Assembly: GCA_947587025.1 (NCBI GenBank)
Contig: CANPXW010000019.1
Coordinates: 1 to 33,399 of the forward strand
Direction of reading: 5' to 3'
From: an uncultured Oscillospiraceae bacterium
GTDB lineage: Bacteria; Bacillota; Clostridia; Oscillospirales; Oscillospiraceae
Length of the DNA: 33,399 nucleotides
A model generated the notes under the pieces. It had not been told where the DNA came from. It did no database searches and worked only from the letters and a program-made list of their open reading frames with translations. The position numbers and the translations under genes are program-made. Positions within the stretch are counted from its first letter, which is position 1. Every line of letters starts with the position of its first letter. Shown here in pieces: positions 6,332 through 16,430 of this stretch.

Positions 6332-6359
6332 AAGCCCCGCCGGTCATCCGGCGGGGCTT
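6332..6359 (+). terminator. Intrinsic terminator after the MATE gene
   Basis: A 12-bp perfect stem AAGCCCCGCCGG/CCGGCGGGGCTT with a TCAT loop, followed by TTTGCGCTTTTC. Confidence 0.85.
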
Positions 6360-6382
6360 TTGCGCTTTTCCAAATCAAAGTA

Positions 6383-6411
6383 TTGACATCGGGAAAGTTT
6401 TGTGATAAATT
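6383..6411 (+). promoter_or_regulatory. Promoter of the pseudokinase gene
   Basis: Consensus TTGACA (6383-6388), a 17-base spacer and TAAATT (6406-6411), inside an AT-rich island that contrasts with the surrounding GC-rich DNA. The expected start is near 6418, giving a leader of about 40 bases. Confidence 0.7.
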
Positions 6412-6455: not shown

Positions 6456-8651
6456 GTGCGCGATATGGCAGAAACAGGCTTCACCCCCACAGCGCTGCTG
6501 GGGGGCTATCTGCGTCAGGCAGGCCCGGACGGGGCGGTAAAGCTGGCGCGGGAGCTGTGCGCCCAGCTGAAGGGCGACCCGGACAGCTTCCACGGCGGCG
6601 TCTGGCCGGGCAATGTGGACCTGGACGTGGAGGGCAAGGCCGTGCTGGGCAAGCCCGACCACACCCCCGCCGCCCAGCGTCCGGCGGACGCGGTGGAATA
6701 CACCGCGCCGGAGTTTTTCTGGCACGGGAGCACCTCCGCTGCGGCGGACGTGTTCGCGGTGGGCCTGATGCTCTACGCCGGGTGCAATGGGGGCTATCTG
6801 CCCTTCCAGCCCACCGAGGGGGAGCCGACCAACAAGGACCGGGCCGACGCTCTGCGCCGGCGGATGAAGGGCCAGCCGGTGACCGCGCCGGAGGGCGTCA
6901 GCGCCGAGCTGAAAAAGGTCATCGAAAAGGCCCTGGCCTACGACCCGGAGGAGCGGTACATCACGGCGGCGGAGATGCTCGCCGCGCTGGGCCGCACAGA
7001 CGAGGCTCTGCCCTCGGCCAAGGGGGCCGGCGCGGCGGCGGCCGCAACGATGGCGGCAGCAGCAGCCCCGGAGGCAGAGACGCCCGCGCCGGAGACGGAT
7101 ACCACCGCGCCGGAGGCGGAAGCTCCTGAGCCAGAGGCGGATGCTCCTGCCCAAGAGGCGGAGGCCCCCGCACCGGAGGCAGAGGCTCCCACATATGAGA
7201 TAGTGACCCCCGTGCCCGAGGCGGATATACCCGCCTATGAGATAGAGACCCCCGCGCCCCGGACGGAGACGTCCGCGCCTAAAACGGATATGCCCGCGCC
7301 CCAGGCAGACGCGCCCGCCCCTGAAGCGGAGACGCCCGCCGTCAAAAAGTCCGCGCCCCAGGCGGCGCGGAAGGACGCGCACACCGGACCGGCCGCCCCG
7401 GCAGGGCAGGCCGCGCCCCAGCATCCCGCCGGGACCCGCCAGTCCCATCCGCAGAAGGGCCGTCCGGCCCAGTCCCATCCCCGGCAGGCGGCCTCCGCCG
7501 TGCCGGCTGCCCAGCGCAAGCGCCGTTCCAAGACCGCGCCCGTGCTGGCGGCCCTGCTGGCCGCCGCCGTGCTGGGAGGCGGGTGGAGCGTCTATCGGTT
7601 CCTGCGCCCCGGCAAGCCGGAGATGTCCCAGCCCTTCGCCCCGGCGGCGGTGGAGACATCGGAGCCCGAGCAGCCCACGGCGACCGCCCTGCCCACGGCC
7701 ACGGCAAAACCCACCCCCACCGCCAGGCCTACGGCCTCGCCCCGGCCCTCCGCCTCTCCCCGGCCATCCGTATCGCCTCAGCCCACGCCTGTCGGCGGCG
7801 CGGCCGCGATAGAGACCGGCGCCGGGACCGGCGCGGGTACAGGCGCCGCCGTGAACACAGGCACAGGCGCCGGCACGAGCACCGCGTCCGCCGGCTACGG
7901 CACAGGCGCCAGCTCCAGCGGCGGATATGGCGGCGGCTACGGCTACGGCGGCAGTTACGGCACCTCCGGCGGCGGCGGTTCCTCCAGCTATACCGTCCAG
8001 TCCGCCGGCGGCACGGTATACCTCACCGGCGACTATGTACGGGTCCGTTCCGGTCCCGGCACCGGCTATACCATCCTGGCCCTCACCCGCAAGGGGGACA
8101 GCCTCACCCGCACCGGCACCGTCTCCACCGGCTGGACCCAGGTGAACTACAACGGCGTCACCGGCTACGTCTACAGCCAGTACCTGACGGACAAGGCCCC
8201 CGCCGCGCCCACGGCCACCCCCAAGCCCTCGCCCTCCGCCACGGCCACGCCTTCGCCCTCGCCATCTCCATCCCCCGTGCCCGCCAAGACATACGAGGTC
8301 AAATCGGAGGCCCTGACCTATGAAAAGGCCAAGGAGGCGGCCGGCGCGGCTGGCCTGGCCACGGTGACGAGCCAGGAGGACTTCCAGGCCCTGAAGGAGA
8401 CCCTGGCCGACTCCGGGCTGGAGTACGTCTGGATAGACGCAGTGAAGTCCGAAGAGGATAACAGCTGGAGCTCCGGCGGCGTGAAGCTCGCCAAGGACTG
8501 GTGGGCCGAGAATGAGCCCGACCCGGCCAACGATCTGCTGCTGCTGCAAAAGACGGCGACCGGCTGGCAGTTCATCACCGTCAAGTCGGATGGCTTCTCG
8601 CTGGAGACCTACGCCGACAAGCTGGGCTATGTGACCAACAAGACCGAATGA
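6456..8651 (+). CDS. Single-pass pseudokinase receptor with SH3b and C-type-lectin-like domains
   Basis: Residue numbers use the GTG start at 6456 (731 aa, GGAG eight bases upstream); ATG at 6465 is an alternative. Residues about 15-180 look like the C-lobe of a Ser/Thr kinase. HGGVWPGN (46-53) replaces HRDLKPxN, GKPD (65-68) sits where DFG is expected, TAPEFF (83-88) matches the APE motif, DVFAVG (99-103) matches DxWSxG, and DPEERYITAAEML matches the terminal helix. The Gly-rich loop, beta-3 Lys and catalytic Asp are absent, so it should be inactive. A Pro/Ala/Glu-rich linker (about 200-300), basic RKRRSK (354-359) and one membrane helix (361-378) follow. Outside come Pro/Ser/Thr and Gly-rich spacers, an SH3b domain (about 515-578, YVRVRSGPGTGYTIL) and a cysteine-free lectin-like fold (about 612-731, YVWIDAVKSEEDNSW, WWAENEPDPAND). 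The layout resembles PrkC/StkP-type sensor kinases. Ligand and partners are unknown. Confidence 0.75.
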   Translation: MRDMAETGFTPTALLGGYLRQAGPDGAVKLARELCAQLKGDPDSFHGGVWPGNVDLDVEGKAVLGKPDHTPAAQRPADAVEYTAPEFFWHGSTSAAADVFAVGLMLYAGCNGGYLPFQPTEGEPTNKDRADALRRRMKGQPVTAPEGVSAELKKVIEKALAYDPEERYITAAEMLAALGRTDEALPSAKGAGAAAAATMAAAAAPEAETPAPETDTTAPEAEAPEPEADAPAQEAEAPAPEAEAPTYEIVTPVPEADIPAYEIETPAPRTETSAPKTDMPAPQADAPAPEAETPAVKKSAPQAARKDAHTGPAAPAGQAAPQHPAGTRQSHPQKGRPAQSHPRQAASAVPAAQRKRRSKTAPVLAALLAAAVLGGGWSVYRFLRPGKPEMSQPFAPAAVETSEPEQPTATALPTATAKPTPTARPTASPRPSASPRPSVSPQPTPVGGAAAIETGAGTGAGTGAAVNTGTGAGTSTASAGYGTGASSSGGYGGGYGYGGSYGTSGGGGSSSYTVQSAGGTVYLTGDYVRVRSGPGTGYTILALTRKGDSLTRTGTVSTGWTQVNYNGVTGYVYSQYLTDKAPAAPTATPKPSPSATATPSPSPSPSPVPAKTYEVKSEALTYEKAKEAAGAAGLATVTSQEDFQALKETLADSGLEYVWIDAVKSEEDNSWSSGGVKLAKDWWAENEPDPANDLLLLQKTATGWQFITVKSDGFSLETYADKLGYVTNKTE

Positions 8652-8657
8652 CTCTTT

Positions 8658-8693
8658 CCGGCCCTGACCGCACGTCAGGGCCGGGATTTTTTT
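8658..8693 (+). terminator. Strong intrinsic terminator after the pseudokinase gene
   Basis: An 11-bp perfect stem CCGGCCCTGAC/GTCAGGGCCGG (8658-8668, 8674-8684) with a 5-base loop, followed by seven consecutive T (8687-8693). Confidence 0.92.
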
Positions 8694-8718
8694 GCCCCGC
8701 CGCCCCCCTTTGACCCCT

Positions 8719-8748
8719 TTCGACCCGGCCGGTGCGCCATTCTATAGG
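8719..8748 (+). promoter_or_regulatory. Weak promoter candidate for the LTA-synthase-like gene
   Basis: TTCGAC (8719-8724), an 18-base spacer and TATAGG (8743-8748) lie between the strong terminator and the ribosome site at 8761. The match is modest, but the terminator implies that some separate start is needed here. Confidence 0.35.
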
Positions 8749-8775
8749 AAGCACGGTCAAGGAGGCAAGGCGCGG

Positions 8776-9954
8776 ATGCGGCGGGTGATATTGGCGGTGC
8801 TGCTGGCGGTGCTGGCGGCGCTGATCGGGTCTAGGATGGCGGCGGAGCGGCCGGCGGTACAGACGGCGGTCCTGGATACATACTGGCCTCCGGAGGAGTA
8901 TAACGTGCTGGACCTGGACAGGCCCCAGGTCCCCCAGACCGCCGGCAGCACCCTGCTGTCGGAGCTGGACAGCTGGTATTTCTCCCGCACGCCCACCGCC
9001 AAGGGGGACTATACCGGCCTGCTGGCGGGAAAGAGCCTCATCCTGCTGCTGGCGGAGCAGTGGACGCCGGAGCAGGCGGACCCGGCCAGCGCACCCTCCC
9101 TCTGGAGGCTGGAAAGCGAGGGACTATGTTTTCAGGACGTGTACGCCCCCGACTGGTATCAGGGCGCGGACGGGCGGCTGTTCGCCCTGCTGACGGGGCT
9201 CGTGCCCACCAACCTGGGCGACGGCACCGCCCTGGCCTGGGTCGGGCAGCAGCACACGTATCTGCCCTGTTCGGTGGGCACATGTCTGGGCGGGATGGGC
9301 TACGCCTGTTTTGCCTGGCCGGGGGACAAGACCGGCGCCGCGTCCCTGGAGGCGCTGGACTTCGCGGTCCGGGAGCGGCCGGTCACCGACGGGGACATGC
9401 TCGTCCAGGCGCTCCCTCAGCTGGGTCAGGGGCCCTTCGCGGCCTTTTTCGTGCTCACGGGGGCCGACGCGGAGCAGACCATGGGCAGGCTGTGGCGGGC
9501 CCTGGCCGACACAGGGCTGGAGGACGACGTGCTGCTGTGTCTGCTGGCGGAGGGCGGCGAGCCGACGCGGGGCAGTCTCACGCTCTGGTGGAAGGGCGCG
9601 CCGGCGGGGCGGGTATCCGCCGGGCCCTGCTCGGAGCTGGACGTGACGGCAACGCTGCTGGACCTGCTGGGCGCGCCCTACGACGCCCGGTTCCTGTCCG
9701 GCCGGGATCTGCTGGCGCCGGAGGGCAGCGGCGCGCCGGTGGCGCTGGGCGGCAGCGCGTACGCCGACTGGGTGACGGACGCCGGCCGGTACAGCGCGGC
9801 CGAGGAGCGCTTCGTCCCCGCCGACGAGCGCTTTTCCGGCGAGCAGGAGACCATCCGGTACGTGCTGCAGATGCGCCAGGCGGTATATGAGCAGTACGTC
9901 TATACGCGCCGCGCGATGGAGCGCGACTATTTTCGCTCCCGGCTGGGTCAGTAA
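8776..9954 (+). CDS. Catalytically degenerate LTA-synthase-family (sulfatase-fold) membrane-anchored protein
   Basis: Start ATG at 8776 has GGAGG ten bases upstream; the frame is open to 8692 but that part lies in the terminator. The 392-residue product has one N-terminal hydrophobic anchor (residues 4-18) instead of the five helices of LtaS, then an extracellular alkaline-phosphatase-like domain. Family landmarks are KSLILLLAEQW (86-96), PSLWRLESEGLCFQDVYAP, YLPCSVGTCLGGMGYACFA, DVTATLLDLLGAPYDARFLSGRDLLAP and the C-terminal DYFRS. By motif alignment the metal ligand Glu94 is kept. The nucleophile Thr region reads GADGR (Ala131), the FSGH His reads Ala230, and the Asp-His pair of NDHYP reads Gly260-Gly261. 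It is therefore predicted not to make teichoic acid. A binding or regulatory role on glycerol-phosphate polymers is only a guess. Confidence 0.72.
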   Translation: MRRVILAVLLAVLAALIGSRMAAERPAVQTAVLDTYWPPEEYNVLDLDRPQVPQTAGSTLLSELDSWYFSRTPTAKGDYTGLLAGKSLILLLAEQWTPEQADPASAPSLWRLESEGLCFQDVYAPDWYQGADGRLFALLTGLVPTNLGDGTALAWVGQQHTYLPCSVGTCLGGMGYACFAWPGDKTGAASLEALDFAVRERPVTDGDMLVQALPQLGQGPFAAFFVLTGADAEQTMGRLWRALADTGLEDDVLLCLLAEGGEPTRGSLTLWWKGAPAGRVSAGPCSELDVTATLLDLLGAPYDARFLSGRDLLAPEGSGAPVALGGSAYADWVTDAGRYSAAEERFVPADERFSGEQETIRYVLQMRQAVYEQYVYTRRAMERDYFRSRLGQ

Positions 9955-10895: not shown

Positions 10896-11258
10896 TCACA
10901 GTCCCTGGGACTGCTTGAAGGCACGCACGGCGTCCGCCGTCTGGGCGTAATCGGCCTTCACCTGGTCCAGCAGACCGGCCGCCGCCCCGGCGTCACGGCC
11001 CCGCAGGGCCTCGGTCAGCTCGTGGCTGGAGTGGCCCAGCTTGGTGAAGCCCAGGTTCTGGCACACGCCCTTGATGGTGTGGCTGGCCCGGAAGGCGGTA
11101 TCCAGATCGCCGCCGTCCATGCTGGTGCACAGCAGCTCGTAGCTGGGGTCGTCCAGGAATTTCAGCACGAACTTCTGGATGAGCCTCTCGCTGCGCAGAC
11201 GTCCCAGCACGTCGTCGTAGTCGGCCTCCATGGCCGCGTAGCACTCCTGCAGAGTCAT
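10896..11258 (-). CDS. Free-standing histidine phosphotransfer (Hpt) protein
   Basis: A 120-residue helical protein with the Hpt signature RASHTIKGVCQNLGF. His60 is the predicted phosphoacceptor, set in a four-helix bundle like those that pass phosphate between the receiver of a hybrid kinase and a final response regulator. No kinase or other domain is attached. The start codon overlaps the stop of the upstream cyclic-di-GMP regulator (ATGA), so the two are translationally coupled and probably made in fixed ratio. The neighbouring hybrid kinases (13397-16345 and 16505-18607) supply receivers that could feed it. It ends next to a bidirectional terminator. Confidence 0.9.
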   Translation of the reverse strand: MTLQECYAAMEADYDDVLGRLRSERLIQKFVLKFLDDPSYELLCTSMDGGDLDTAFRASHTIKGVCQNLGFTKLGHSSHELTEALRGRDAGAAAGLLDQVKADYAQTADAVRAFKQSQGL

Positions 11259-13324
11259 TGGTCTGTTCCTCCTTGCTCGTCGTCGATGTCAGAAATGGCG
11301 GAAAGGGTATCCTTCAAAGATTCATCGTAGAACCGGTACTGCGCCCGGCCGGCCCGCTTGGCGGCGTACAGGGCCGCGTCGGCGGCCTGGAACAGCGCCT
11401 CGTAGCTCTTGCCGGTGAGCTGGGCCAGGGCCACGCCCATGGTCACGGAGATGTCGTAGTTCTCGTAGGGGCCGCACAGGCTGTGGAAGATGCGGTCCAC
11501 GGTGCGCTCGATGTCGGTGTTGTACTCCAGGAAGAGCAAAAACTCATCCCCGCCTGCCCGGCAGGCGATGTCGGAACCGCGCACGCTCCGGTGCAGCCGG
11601 TCGGCCACCACCTTGAGCACCTGGTCGCCGAACTGGTGGCCGTACTGGTCGTTGGCGGACTTGAAGAAGTCCAGGTCGAAGATGGCCATAGCGTAATTGC
11701 TCTGGGGGCGGTCGGCCATGCGGGTCTCGATGCGCTCCTTGGCGGCAGCCCGGTTGTAAAGGCCCGTCATGGCGTCACGGGCGGCCTTTTTCTCCAGGTA
11801 AGTCATCTTCTCATGGGTGTCGTGGATGTCGATGGCCTTGCCCAGCGCGCCCTCGAATCGGGGCGGCATGTCCGTGGACCAGATGGAGCGCAGGATGATC
11901 TGGTACCAGCGGGACTGGCCGTCGTAGGTCAGCTGGCAGTCGTAGCTGATGTTGGGAGCCTCCGCCGTGGTCTGGCGCAGCTTCTCCAGCATTTCGGCCC
12001 AGCCGTCGTCCCCCAGCACGGCCTGCAGCTTGGGGTCCCGGCCGGGGTCCATGATGATCTCGTCCAGGCCCAGGGTCTGGGCGCCCCAGGGGGTCATGCT
12101 GATGACGGACGGGGAGATGGTGTACTCGAACTGTATCTCCCTGGTCATGGCGGCGAAGAAGCTGTACTTCATCCGCTCGTAGTCCAGCAGCCGCAGCGTG
12201 CGGTCCGAGACGCTGCTGTTGGCGGGGCGGACCGACTCCTGCACGATGTTCCGGCTCTCCCGGGCGGCGCTCTGCTCGCCGGACTCGGCCAGCAGGGCGC
12301 GGATGCTCTCGGCGTTCTCCGTCAGGCACTCCAGCAGCAGCGGGTTGAACACGCCGCACTGGCCGCCGGTGATCATCTCCACCGCCTTCTCATGGGAGAA
12401 GGGGGGCTTGTATACCCGGGGGCTGGTCAGCGCGTCGTACACGTCCGCCAGCGCCACCACCTGGGCGGAGATGGGGATGTCGTCCCCCACCAGGCCGTCG
12501 GGATAGCCCTGGCCGTCGTACCGCTCGTGGTGCCAGCGGCATATCTCGTAGGCCGTGCGTATCAACGGGTCGTCCTTATGCCCCTCCAGCGCGTCCAGCA
12601 TCATGGCTCCCTTGATGGAGTGGGTCTTCATCACGGTGCACTCGTCCACGGTCAGCCGGCCGGGCTTGTTGAGGATGTGCTCGTCGATGACGATTTTGCC
12701 GATGTCGTGCAGGGCCGATCCCACGCTGATACAGGAGATCTCCTGGCTGGTCAGGCCGTAGCGGTCGGTCTTGCGCATCAGCGCCCGCAGCAGGAAGTCC
12801 GTCAGCGTGCGCACGTGCAGGATGTGCTGGCCGCTCTCGCCGTTGCGGAACTCCACGATGTGGCTGAGTATCTCTATCATCAGGCTGCTCTGGCGCTCCG
12901 TCTCCCGTATCTGCTCCTCCACCATGGCCGTCAGCCGCTTCTGCTTGGCGTACAGCAGCAGGGTGTTCACCACCCGCCGGCGGACGATCAGCGCGTCGAA
13001 GGGCCGGGCGATGAAGTCGCTCACCCCCAGATCGTACGCCTTGGCCACCTGGGCCGATCCGCTCTCGGCGGAGATCATGATCACCGGCACTTCCGCGATC
13101 AGGCCGCTCTGGTTCATGGCCGCCAGCACCCCGAAGCCGTCCAGCCGGGGCATGACGATGTCCAGCAGCACCAGGCTGATGGCGCTGCCGTGGGAGCGGA
13201 GCATGGCCAGGCCATCCACGCCGTCCTCCGCCTCCAGTATCTCGTACTCGTCCTCCAGCATGTCCGCCAGGATGGAACGGTTCATCTCCGAGTCGTCAAC
13301 GATCAGTATCTTTCCCTTGTCCAT
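11255..13324 (-). CDS. Response regulator with HD-GYP, PAS-like and GGDEF domains (cyclic-di-GMP turnover)
   Basis: The 689-residue protein starts with a receiver domain (1-120, DDSEMN, phosphoacceptor Asp55 in LLDIVMP). The usual conserved Lys is Arg107 (FIARPF). An HD-GYP phosphodiesterase domain spans about 145-335 with HD at 206-207 (ALHDIGK) and HHERYDGQGYPDGL (GYP at 273-275). A PAS-like region follows (about 380-505). The diguanylate cyclase domain is at 510-670, with intact GGDEF at 591-595 and an RxxD inhibitory site (RGSD) five residues before it. Both synthesis and breakdown motifs appear complete, so net output should depend on phosphorylation and product binding. GGAG-type ribosome site precedes the ATG. 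It lies 72 bases after the upstream hybrid kinase and overlaps hpt, so a phosphorelay operon is likely. Confidence 0.93.
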   Translation of the reverse strand: MDKGKILIVDDSEMNRSILADMLEDEYEILEAEDGVDGLAMLRSHGSAISLVLLDIVMPRLDGFGVLAAMNQSGLIAEVPVIMISAESGSAQVAKAYDLGVSDFIARPFDALIVRRRVVNTLLLYAKQKRLTAMVEEQIRETERQSSLMIEILSHIVEFRNGESGQHILHVRTLTDFLLRALMRKTDRYGLTSQEISCISVGSALHDIGKIVIDEHILNKPGRLTVDECTVMKTHSIKGAMMLDALEGHKDDPLIRTAYEICRWHHERYDGQGYPDGLVGDDIPISAQVVALADVYDALTSPRVYKPPFSHEKAVEMITGGQCGVFNPLLLECLTENAESIRALLAESGEQSAARESRNIVQESVRPANSSVSDRTLRLLDYERMKYSFFAAMTREIQFEYTISPSVISMTPWGAQTLGLDEIIMDPGRDPKLQAVLGDDGWAEMLEKLRQTTAEAPNISYDCQLTYDGQSRWYQIILRSIWSTDMPPRFEGALGKAIDIHDTHEKMTYLEKKAARDAMTGLYNRAAAKERIETRMADRPQSNYAMAIFDLDFFKSANDQYGHQFGDQVLKVVADRLHRSVRGSDIACRAGGDEFLLFLEYNTDIERTVDRIFHSLCGPYENYDISVTMGVALAQLTGKSYEALFQAADAALYAAKRAGRAQYRFYDESLKDTLSAISDIDDEQGGTDQ

Positions 13325-13337
13325 TTCCTCTCCTGCC

Positions 13338-13356
13338 GCCGGCGCTGTGCGCCGGC
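13338..13356 (-). other. Stem-loop just upstream of the regulator's ribosome site
   Basis: GCCGGCGC/GCGCCGGC (8-bp stem, 3-base loop) sits immediately upstream of the AGGAGAGG region of the 13324 start. On the minus strand the T-run precedes rather than follows the stem, so it is not a terminator for the kinase gene. It could protect or tune the downstream message. Confidence 0.4.
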
Positions 13357-13396
13357 AAAAATGCTATTTTCTGTGACAGACGCCCTTCTTCGGCGG

Positions 13397-16345
13397 TCAC
13401 TTCAGCCACTTTTTGAGCATCTCCATCAGCTTTTCCACCTCCACGGGCTTGGACACATGGTCGTTCATGCCCGCCTCCTTCGCCCGCAGGATGTCGTCCG
13501 CGAAGGCGTTGGCGGTCATGGCCACGATGGGCACCGTGCCGGCGTCGGGCCGGTCCAGGGCCCGGATGGCACGGGCCGCGTCGTAGCCGTTCATCACCGG
13601 CATCTGGATGTCCATGAAGACCAGGTCGTAATAGCCGGGCTGGCTCCCAGAGATCTTTTTCACCGCCTGGGCGCCGTCCTCGGCCTGGTCCACGTCCACG
13701 CCGATGAAGCTCAGCAGCTCCTGGGCGATCTCCCGGTTGAGCTGGTTGTCCTCCACCAGCAGCACCCGCTTGCCCGCGAAGCTGCCCTCCTCCAGCGCGG
13801 AGGGGGCCAGCTCCGGCTGCCCGCCTTCGCCGGCCAGCACCGACTTGAGGGCGAACACCAGCCGGGAGCGGAACAGGGGCTTTTCGATGAAGGCGGATAT
13901 GCCCGCCTGCCGGGCCTCGGCCTCGATGTCGGACCAGTCGTAGGCCGACAGGATGATGATGGGCACGTGGTCCCCCACCTGCCGGCGTATCTGGCGGGCA
14001 GTTTCCACTCCGTCCATGCCGGGCATCTTCCAGTCCAGTATCACTGCGGAGAAGTCCTCTCCCGCCTGGGTGGCGGCCAGGGTCCGGTCCACGGCCTGCC
14101 GGCCGTCCGTCACCCACTCCGGGCGCATGCCGATGCCCTGCAGGATCTCGCAGGTGGTCACGCAGCAGGTCTCGTCGTCGTCCGCCACCAGCACCCGCAG
14201 ATCGGCAAGCTGGCCCACGTCCTCCGCCGCCAGGTCCTGCAGGCGCAGATGCAGCTGCACGGTGAAGGTGGAGCCCTGGCCGGGCTGGCTCTGGACCCGG
14301 ATGTCCCCGTCCATCATCCGCACCAGGTTGCGGGTGATGCTCATGCCCAGGCCGGTGCCTTCGATGTTGCCGGACTGCTTGGAACGGCTGAAGGGGTCGA
14401 AGATGGTCTTGATGAACGCCTCGTCCATGCCGATGCCCGTGTCCTGGCAGACGAACTCATAGCAGGCCATGCCGTGGATGCGGGAGACGCTCTCCCGGAT
14501 GGAGAAGGTGATGGTGCCGCCCTCGGGGGTGAACTTCACCGCGTTGCCCAGGATATTGACGAATATCTGCTGCAGGCGCAGGATGTCGCCCAACACGTCC
14601 TCGTGCTCGATGTGGTCGATGTGCACCCGCAGCTGCTGGCGCTTGGCGTCCACCTGGGCGCGGATGATGGTCACCACGCTCTCCACCATGTCCGCCATGG
14701 AGAAGGGCTCCTCCGACAGGGTCACCTTGCCGCTCTCGATCTTGGACATGTCCAGCACGTCGTTTATCAGCGCCAGCAGGTGGCGGCTGGAGATGGTGAT
14801 CTTGCTCAGGCAGTCGGTCAGCCGCTCCGGGTCGTCCAGATGCATGGCGGCCACCGCCGTCATGCCCATGATGGCGTTCATAGGGGTGCGGATGTCGTGG
14901 CTCATACGGGCCAAAAATTCGCTCTTGGCCCGGTTGGCGGCCTCCGCCGCCTCGGAGGCGTTTTTCAGCGCCAGGCGTATCTCCATATCCCGCTCCCGCA
15001 GGGCGGTCACGTCCTGGATGGCGAACAGCACGTCCACCGGCAGGCCCGCCTTCCGCTCCAGGCAGAGGATGTAGATGTTCTCCCAGCGGTGGCCGCCCCG
15101 GTCGATCTGATAGGCGAACTGCAGATAGGGCACGTCCTCGGTCAGGTGCCTCTGCACATACTCCCGGCCGATGACCTGGCTCATCTGCTCGCCGGTGTCG
15201 GCCATGTCGATATACATGCCGTCCAGGCGGGCGATCAGGTCCGTATACGCGCCCTGCACCGGCACGCCGCCGATGCCCTTGTCCAGATAGCGGTAGGTAT
15301 CCGTCTCAAAATCCACCAGCGCGAAGCGGGTGAACAGCGCCGGCACCGCTTGGACGATGCGGCTCATCTGCTGCTTTTCGTCCACCAGCCGACGCCGCTG
15401 CCGCCAGTTTCTCACCAGCAGATAGCCCACGTAGACCAGGAACGCCAGCGCCAGCTCTATCTCCAGCCGGATGCCGGCGGAGTTGGCCTGGCGGGTCATA
15501 CTGCTGGTCAGGGAGGAGGGGAAGGTCTGCACCAGCACCCAGTCCCCGCCGTCCAGGGCGATGGCGTAGGCGCTGCCGGCGCCCTTGGAGCCCTTGTAGG
15601 AGAAGCTGGTGAAATCCACGTCGTTGGTGGCGTCCAGGGTGTCCCGCAGCCGCAGAAGATCCTGGGGCGTCAGGCGGTCGTCCCGCTCGATGCGCTCCAG
15701 CAGGTTCTGCCCGGCCAGGTCGGCCTGCGAGGCGAGGATGATGGTGCCGTCCCGCTCCAGCAGATAGGTGTTGCCCTGCACGCCGAAGTAGTCGGAGACC
15801 AGCACCTCCTCCACTGTCTGCCCCCGCAGGATGCAGCTGAGCACGCCGATGATCTCGTTGTTATAGTAAAACGGCGCGTAGAAAATGAGCAGCGTCTCGT
15901 TGGTGATGCGGCTGTTGTGGACCACGCACCGCCCGGCGTTGCCGGCCATGCCGTCCAGAAAATATTCCCGGTCAGACAGGTCCGCCGTCTGGCCGTCCGC
16001 CGTCAGGTCGGTGCCGTCAGCGGAGATGAACTCCACATAGTCGAACATGGAGCGGCTGACCATGTCCCGCAGCACATCCGTGTCTATCTCCGGCCGGGCC
16101 AGCGTCGCGCCGTACAGATGGGCCATCTGCTCAACGCTGCGCTGGGACATGTTCAGCAGTTCTTCGATGCGCGCCTCCTTCTGCTCGGTGGCGGTCTGGA
16201 TGATGCTGTCGTTCTGCTCCAGGATGCGCTGGTCGTTGTCCCGCACGAAGGTGAAGAAGGACAGCAGGATGAACGCCAGCAGCGCGCCGAGGACTATGGC
16301 GCCTGTGATGATGTCGCTTCGTGATCTCTTTTCGGTGTTATCCAT
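13397..16345 (-). CDS. Hybrid sensor histidine kinase with Cache-like sensor, PAS-like domain and two receivers
   Basis: The start is set at 16345 (MDNTEKRSRS, GGAGGG just upstream) because the in-frame extension to 16411 covers the promoter. The 982-residue protein has a membrane helix at about 12-32, an extracytoplasmic region of about 260 residues resembling a double Cache ligand domain (FDYVEFISADGTD, YFLDGMAG, GNTYLLERDGTIILAS), and a second helix at about 294-312. A PAS-like region ending VLFAIQDVTALRERD follows. HisKA has its H-box at FLARMSHDIRTP (His483), and the ATPase domain shows GNAVKFTPEGG, DTGIGMDEAF and GTGLGMSI. Two receiver domains follow (VILDWKMPGMDG and VFMDIQMPVMNG), both with acceptor Asp and conserved Lys. 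It probably signals through the free Hpt protein to the HD-GYP/GGDEF regulator downstream. The ligand is unknown. Confidence 0.93.
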   Translation of the reverse strand: MDNTEKRSRSDIITGAIVLGALLAFILLSFFTFVRDNDQRILEQNDSIIQTATEQKEARIEELLNMSQRSVEQMAHLYGATLARPEIDTDVLRDMVSRSMFDYVEFISADGTDLTADGQTADLSDREYFLDGMAGNAGRCVVHNSRITNETLLIFYAPFYYNNEIIGVLSCILRGQTVEEVLVSDYFGVQGNTYLLERDGTIILASQADLAGQNLLERIERDDRLTPQDLLRLRDTLDATNDVDFTSFSYKGSKGAGSAYAIALDGGDWVLVQTFPSSLTSSMTRQANSAGIRLEIELALAFLVYVGYLLVRNWRQRRRLVDEKQQMSRIVQAVPALFTRFALVDFETDTYRYLDKGIGGVPVQGAYTDLIARLDGMYIDMADTGEQMSQVIGREYVQRHLTEDVPYLQFAYQIDRGGHRWENIYILCLERKAGLPVDVLFAIQDVTALRERDMEIRLALKNASEAAEAANRAKSEFLARMSHDIRTPMNAIMGMTAVAAMHLDDPERLTDCLSKITISSRHLLALINDVLDMSKIESGKVTLSEEPFSMADMVESVVTIIRAQVDAKRQQLRVHIDHIEHEDVLGDILRLQQIFVNILGNAVKFTPEGGTITFSIRESVSRIHGMACYEFVCQDTGIGMDEAFIKTIFDPFSRSKQSGNIEGTGLGMSITRNLVRMMDGDIRVQSQPGQGSTFTVQLHLRLQDLAAEDVGQLADLRVLVADDDETCCVTTCEILQGIGMRPEWVTDGRQAVDRTLAATQAGEDFSAVILDWKMPGMDGVETARQIRRQVGDHVPIIILSAYDWSDIEAEARQAGISAFIEKPLFRSRLVFALKSVLAGEGGQPELAPSALEEGSFAGKRVLLVEDNQLNREIAQELLSFIGVDVDQAEDGAQAVKKISGSQPGYYDLVFMDIQMPVMNGYDAARAIRALDRPDAGTVPIVAMTANAFADDILRAKEAGMNDHVSKPVEVEKLMEMLKKWLK

Positions 16346-16401
16346 CCGTTCCCTCCGGCGGTCCCGCCCGCACGCGTCGTCTGAAATATCTGCATTTTTA
16401 T

Positions 16402-16430
16402 ATTGTAACATGCCGGCGGCCCCGATGCAA
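16402..16430 (-). promoter_or_regulatory. Promoter of the hybrid kinase-regulator-Hpt operon
   Basis: On the minus strand TTGCAT (16430-16425), a 17-base spacer and TACAAT (16407-16402), in the gap after the terminator of the upstream kinase gene. The expected start is near 16395, giving a leader of about 50 bases. Confidence 0.65.

Follow-up and report, generated by a model that had tools for sequence, protein, structure and literature searches.

A clade of gut bacterial envelope proteins built from a kinase C-lobe without an N-lobe, probably receptors or scaffolds

Introduction

Transmembrane Ser/Thr kinases of the PrkC/StkP/PknB type combine an N-terminal kinase fold, one transmembrane (TM) helix and a wall-facing sensor made of PASTA domains; they form a front-to-front contact on the C-lobe at helix G and a back-to-back contact on the N-lobe. 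Here we describe a gene (6456..8651, + strand) in a 33,399-nucleotide stretch of an uncultured Oscillospiraceae bacterium (contig CANPXW010000019.1, assembly GCA_947587025.1; hereafter the window), which encodes a 731-residue protein of the same layout but has no N-lobe, has lost the catalytic residues and carries an SH3b and a C-type-lectin-like domain (CTLD) instead of PASTA. The PknB_PASTA_kin model reaches 47 of the required 450 bits on this protein, its Pfam scan shows no PASTA, in contrast to the PknB of the same genome, and none of the 13 matching NCBIfam families exceeds its cut-off. We read the protein, with a probability of about 60%, as a single-pass envelope receptor or scaffold built from half a kinase.

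The ectodomain of EssB/YukC, a component of type VII secretion, is helical. The protein is, like the window receptor, a membrane pseudokinase of Firmicutes, and it fails to bind ATP, as is predicted for the receptor too; according to the sections of the source available to us, it differs in its pseudokinase (residues 3–206, with a degraded Gly loop) and in a different, dimerising ectodomain (PMC9600267). EssB/YukC is absent among the Pfam families matching the window protein at E ≤ 1. The nearest experimental analogue is the MviN pseudokinase (ActPs3) of M. tuberculosis, also an envelope-tied membrane pseudokinase and non-catalytic recruiter with a carbohydrate-binding domain. It recruits FhaA after phosphorylation by PknB, restraining wall synthesis; unlike the receptor, it has an N-lobe, in which the constraints of its family are concentrated, and a different membrane part (PMC12599244, available sections). 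The families reviewed in the same sections have lost motifs or carry deletions, and none of them is without an N-lobe.

The nearest published architecture that we found belongs to cyanobacterial targets of diversity-generating retroelements (DGRs), in which a Ser kinase is fused to a C-terminal C-type lectin fold (CLec); in the part of that paper at hand, Hanks motifs I–IX and diversification by the retroelement are reported (PMC7517822). The window protein differs on the first count. As to the second, its genome, assembled to 80% completeness, shows no convincing template copy and no second copy of the CTLD DNA besides a 38-base 83% match; a reverse transcriptase was not searched for. Our literature search, with thin coverage of subscription papers and preprints, returned no N-lobe-less bacterial receptor and no lectin-bearing half-kinase; among the papers listed, PMC8008677 mentions both a C-type lectin domain and a protein kinase domain.

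A Kinase C-Lobe without an N-Lobe

The protein begins with a complete and conserved kinase C-lobe, which runs from helix D/E to helix I (6465..7019, + strand) and is recognized by profile, alignment and structure model. A sequence-only reading of the window had noted four kinase-like motifs (HGGVWPGN, TAPEFF, DVFAVG and DPEERY); all are present in that order, and the resemblance goes beyond ordered motifs to a whole lobe, with the protein beginning at the hinge/helix D. Pkinase (PF00069) aligns residues 77–175 to model positions 158–258 of 263 (33.4 bits against a cut-off of 31.7). The AlphaFold (AF2) model of the lobe has a pLDDT of 90.6, and its Foldseek and VIA comparisons with the PDB recover the kinase fold that had been predicted for this domain: among the matches listed, PknB stands first, and all 50 of the VIA comparison are kinases, although other families may stand outside them. 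Nineteen models of anti-phage kinases (PD-T4-6, MADS6, PglW) match as well, each over C-lobe stretches of its kinase part and none over the full profile.

To place the protein among relatives, a collection of species genomes was scanned, giving 433 pattern matches, of which 187 are relatives; the best 80 of the 187 were fetched. Conservation was read from an alignment (A2) of the window with 78 of these 80 named loci, leaving out a near-copy (L035) and a cut locus (L046); another alignment (A1) covers 24 of the first 30 loci. In the window protein HRD has become HGG and the DFG position reads KPD, while the APE Glu, the helix-F Asp and the Arg pairing with APE are kept. The HRD Asp occurs in none of the 79 aligned rows, the catalytic-loop Asn in 73 and the His in 65, and ten residues are invariant. 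Arg133 and Met134, at the end of the helix taken from its order to be G, are invariant in the 79 rows, and all eight other kinases aligned share the Arg. The protein thus has none of the marks of an active Hanks-type Ser/Thr kinase (an N-lobe with Gly-rich loop and VAIK, the HRD Asp and the DFG Asp). As in other pseudokinases, the catalytic residues are lost and the C-lobe fold is kept, here with the N-lobe half of the fold missing.

The claim of a pseudokinase without N-lobe, catalytic Asp and DFG is borne out by profiles, models and relatives alike. All 80 relatives, which come from other assemblies, have the C-lobe and lack the N-lobe. In 71 of them the likely start lies at the hinge; the remaining nine have 96–135 open codons before it, low-complexity and mostly acidic. 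An N-lobe profile built from ten kinases matches none of the 80 relatives even at E ≤ 10, against 43 of 45 other kinase frames; this control set includes the profile's own ten, two near-copies and some frames that are cut or degenerate, and its two misses are the more distant kinases of the window's own genome. A wrong start, or a frameshift or assembly error as envisaged in the sequence-only reading, is ruled out as the cause of the missing lobe, because an in-frame stop (six codons 5′ of GTG 6456, beyond which the frame does not extend) and a promoter lie just upstream, and the relatives are alike, none with an N-lobe match.

Relatives and Phylogeny

Most of the 80 relatives are labelled Oscillospiraceae; the others carry labels such as Ruminococcaceae, Clostridiales, Eubacteriales or Butyricicoccus, and the isolate names point to rumen, rabbit, chicken, horse and other guts. 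Of 300 genomes sampled from the host family, 58 pass E ≤ 1e-35 with a family profile: 56 of them, in 20 of 106 genera, have one match of at least 175 bits each (the N-terminal region was read for 30 of these 56), and the other two reach only 127–130 bits. Among 394 genomes of the order, scores above 200 bits occur in four only, all from the same family, with other listed matches at or below 126; among 391 genomes of the class, the window itself is the sole strong match, followed by one of 131 bits. These searches scored 8 or 11 candidates per genome, and weaker matches outside the family were read in part, so absence there is no proof; the weaker matches that were fetched (not all) carry an N-lobe.

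In a maximum-likelihood tree of 121 C-lobes, from which two near-copies and one cut frame were left out, a branch supported at 100/100, where the program warns of long branches meeting, sets the 79 N-lobe-less rows apart. The N-lobe-less proteins form one clade. The sequence-only reading knew of no described protein with this exact architecture, and the literature search gave none either; the architecture is nevertheless common to a clade of gut Oscillospiraceae-like bacteria rather than peculiar to the window.

Three kinases, two from another family of the order (L128, L129) and one from the same family (L132), share the order of parts, with a TM helix and a homologous C-terminal CTLD (107.4, 100.7 and 65.7 bits, respectively). 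Unlike the receptor, they keep the N-lobe, HRD and DFG/DFS and are apparently active; our literature search found no such receptor kinase described. In the C-lobe tree they do not come out as sister to the half-kinases, a placement made unsure by long branches.

Other relatives (L130, L133 and, less so, L114 and L131) keep the N-lobe but have degraded catalytic motifs, which is why active-site decay in this kinase group seems to have happened more than once. Degraded catalytic motifs next to a kept N-lobe, judged by pattern only, also occur in L147, L152 and L153; all seven represent further pseudokinase groups in the order and class. A separate locus (L117; G318:C40) encodes three tandem Ser/Thr kinases, of which two open with the zinc-ribbon-like stretch CPKCG..CPxCG and one with CRNCG..CPRCG. 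A phage origin of the receptor was considered and rejected, as none of 38 pattern matches in viral contigs is a relative.

Linker, Juxtamembrane Motif and Membrane Helix

The C-lobe is followed by a linker rich in Ala, Pro, Glu and Thr, encoded in part by an array of 21-nucleotide repeats (7031..7330, + strand; repeat scan and composition). A single TM helix (7533..7604, + strand), preceded by QRKRRSK, is the sole stretch of the protein above 1.6 in hydropathy, in agreement with the one membrane helix proposed from sequence. The C-lobe would accordingly lie inside the cell and the head outside.

In 45 of the 76 relatives (L034–L113) with linker and TM helix, the otherwise low-complexity linker carries a motif, Y-x-V-x-[KR]-x-F-[ED]. 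A script counted 44, and L066, whose TM helix the script had misplaced, was added by reading; four of the 80 relatives have no TM helix within the stretch and are omitted. The motif lies 14–43 residues ahead of the TM helix in 42 of 44 measured, and shuffled linkers gave a mean of 0.004 matches and a maximum of 1 over 1000 rounds. We suggest that it may be a docking site for a partner. Searching ten genomes with the motif as a DNA pattern gave 12 matches, against 7 for a reversed control pattern. Eight of the 12 fall within the receptor gene. The remaining four comprise one in an apparent response regulator and one each in frames of 548, 43 and 105 codons, and no second protein family with the motif was pointed to in this search.

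The Predicted Extracytoplasmic Half

Beyond the membrane helix, a stalk rich in Gly, Ala, Thr, Ser and Pro by composition (7611..8033, + strand) leads to an SH3b domain (8034..8186, + strand), where Pfam SH3_3 matches residues 527–577 with 42.6 bits against a cut-off of 27. The last 120 residues form a Cys-free CTLD (8289..8648, + strand). On the window alone, Lectin_C stays below its cut-off (17.2 against 22.6 bits); at E ≤ 0.01 it is found in 46 of the 55 family CTLDs of alignment A3, which comprises that of the window and 54 of the 67 listed. The AF2 model (pLDDT 90.0) finds 35 PDB matches at E ≤ 0.001, and the 50 matches listed are all C-type lectin domains, among them SPL-1, which we take to be a C-type lectin. 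Both ectodomain folds anticipated from the sequence, including the absence of Cys, are therefore present.

A CTLD is found by profile in 68 of the 80 relatives; among the 12 without a match are eight truncated at a contig end, three with SH3b repeats at their C-terminus and one SH3b-bearing protein that is partly masked. SH3b occurs in 24 of the 80 (20 with a CTLD and four without a CTLD match), so that most clade members have none. Five relatives scanned with Pfam show one SH3_3 each and, in three of the five, Lectin_C below cut-off. An apparent second, C-terminal SH3b in eight relatives is a profile artefact, gone when the profile is built from first domains only. Three half-kinase receptors (L085, L100 and L102) have no lectin domain and end in three or four SH3b repeats.

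Calcium-dependent C-type lectins are marked by EPN-like and WND-like Ca/sugar motifs and a conserved Cys pair. The window CTLD reads EPD and has neither a WND-like motif nor Cys, and thus differs from a canonical Ca-dependent lectin. Within the SH3b clade, the window included, EPx occurs in 5 of 19 CTLDs, a WND-like motif in 4 and the Cys pair in none; for the 36 CTLDs from members that have no SH3b, the counts are 36, 35 and 27, respectively. Of the wall or glycan sensing proposed by the sequence-only reading, the domains stand; since the Ca/sugar and Cys residues are mostly lost in the SH3b clade, the CTLD is a less likely glycan sensor in the window protein than in its relatives. The SH3b, and in relatives also the CTLD, would bind cell-wall or glycan material.

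With an SH3b in place, the CTLD may have been released from classical Ca-dependent sugar binding. Such a release fits the gradient of substitution in 15 pairwise comparisons (NG86): dN/dS is 0.21–0.53 in the C-lobe (identity 68–83%), 0.23–0.96 in the SH3b (50–79%) and 0.70–1.27 in the CTLD (29–42%). Relaxed constraint and ligand diversification are both possible explanations of the CTLD rate.

Interpretation

That the protein is a non-catalytic receptor or scaffold appears likely to us. Outside the cell, a wall-binding head would stand on a long stalk anchored by the membrane helix; inside, a rigid half-kinase would pass the signal of the head on by holding a protein partner. As there is no ATP site, the output would have to be binding, and signalling by binding rather than phosphorylation, proposed at the outset, is a sound inference. 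A C-lobe without an N-lobe could make the helix-G, front-to-front contact only; for this reason, and given the invariant Arg133/Met134 with the Arg kept in other kinases, our most specific guess is that the C-lobe docks on an active Ser/Thr kinase or a kinase substrate. A Ser/Thr kinase as the partner is itself a tentative proposal. We put forward, also tentatively, a first half-kinase receptor class, in which a C-lobe cut off at the hinge and retained in many genera would be an obligate non-catalytic partner. It would dock through the helix-G face, and in most relatives also through the juxtamembrane motif, on an active envelope kinase or the substrates of that kinase, with a fast-evolving lectin/SH3b head in control.

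A genome search for an active kinase returned two candidates. Besides the receptor, the three Pkinase matches of the genome comprise PknB, on contig C10, in which a full Pkinase domain and also PASTA exceed their cut-offs and HRD is replaced by HLD, and a second kinase, on contig C16, which has HRD and DFG and is matched from model position 42 onwards.

Several observations weigh against the receptor or scaffold reading. Its topology is taken from the positive-inside rule alone, with QRKRRSK on the cytoplasmic side. The window protein (linker 7020-7532) lacks the juxtamembrane motif of its relatives, and tblastn with three relatives found none in another frame of the window; together with the high dN/dS of the CTLD, this loss suggests that part of the ancestral function may be gone from the window protein. 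Of the eight other kinases aligned, only two share the helix-G Met, and conservation of this helix could be purely structural. Finally, no neighbour gene is conserved across genera, and hence no partner is indicated.

Ectodomain modules of known binding kinds, a fast-evolving CTLD and the lack of a conserved neighbour would also suit a surface adhesin or wall tether only, its C-lobe being a folded intracellular plug without a signal. We consider this unlikely: the C-lobe is the most conserved part of the protein by identity and holds ten invariant residues, and the relatives carry a separate conserved motif near the membrane. A similarly doubtful alternative makes the protein a decoy or substrate platform, whose helix-G face would bind substrates or adaptors of an active kinase (e.g., FHA proteins), titrating or localising them. 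The helix-G segment kept in 79 of 79 rows, an FHA domain in an FtsW/RodA-like frame of the own genome and the recruitment of FhaA by phosphorylated MviN (PMC12599244, available sections) speak for it; however, no conserved phospho-acceptor was noticed, with no systematic search made, and the FHA link is by analogy only. The FHA domain in question (L135; G000:C2:17396-17590) is the genome's only FHA match; the rest of its 647-codon frame resembles an FtsW/RodA membrane protein, and it might connect phospho-Thr with wall synthesis.

Kinase-like proteins such as SelO and SidJ perform unusual chemistry, and the frequent retention of the catalytic-loop Asn and His might hint at an enzyme still at work, through such chemistry or through an N-lobe supplied in trans. 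This is very improbable, as the N-lobe, HRD Asp and DFG Asp are all missing and no lone N-lobe is present among the three Pkinase matches of the genome; a search of the genome with the N-lobe profile (A4) was also empty, although this profile misses the genome's own PknB and second kinase and the assembly is incomplete. A pseudogene fragment, frameshift or assembly error, for which nothing beyond the missing lobe itself was found, has practically no chance against a promoter and terminator, an intact long frame, 80 of 80 relatives without the N-lobe and a C-lobe dN/dS below 1.

Gene, Flanks and Genome Context

The open reading frame at 6456-8651 (+ strand) is real and has two candidate starts, GTG 6456 and ATG 6465; paired starts three codons apart also occur in at least nine relatives. 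Between the upstream MATE gene and the receptor gene lies a sigma-70-like promoter, TTGACA-17-TAAATT with TG (6383..6411, + strand), scoring 10/12, where one was found against a shuffle mean of 0.1. A hairpin of the MATE gene near 6332-6369 was seen by eye and is unlisted by the terminator/promoter scan. Directly 3′ of the receptor stop codon, a strong hairpin with an 11-bp GC-rich stem followed by seven T was read directly as an intrinsic terminator (8658..8693, + strand). Given the MATE-gene hairpin, the own promoter and the terminator, the receptor gene is most likely a single-gene transcription unit.

Neighbour genes were called by a simple composition score, which missed the receptor gene itself in the window. 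In the window's clade, the receptor gene follows genes reading as recA, recX, rimO, cysE, cysS and often MATE; elsewhere its neighbours are other genes. Right after the receptor terminator, a frame at 8692-9954 resembles a degenerate LtaS/sulfatase (PDB 4mhx, a weak match with E 0.11; no Pfam match). Further along, the minus strand at 10896-16411 carries a cluster of an Hpt protein, a response regulator-HD-GGDEF protein and a dCache hybrid histidine kinase.

Implications

The juxtamembrane motif of the relatives and the loss of lectin Ca and Cys residues in the SH3b clade are new here. In the bacterial literature examined, as far as its available sections go, pseudokinases keep both lobes; in the present clade the C-lobe is the only lobe kept, and it is intact and conserved. 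What the C-lobe does without catalysis is thereby set apart from ATP binding and becomes directly testable. Kinase with CTLD, half-kinase with CTLD, half-kinase with SH3b and CTLD, and half-kinase with SH3b only form a natural series, which may lead from sensor kinase to scaffold, and uncultured gut bacteria gain a receptor type with a lectin head.
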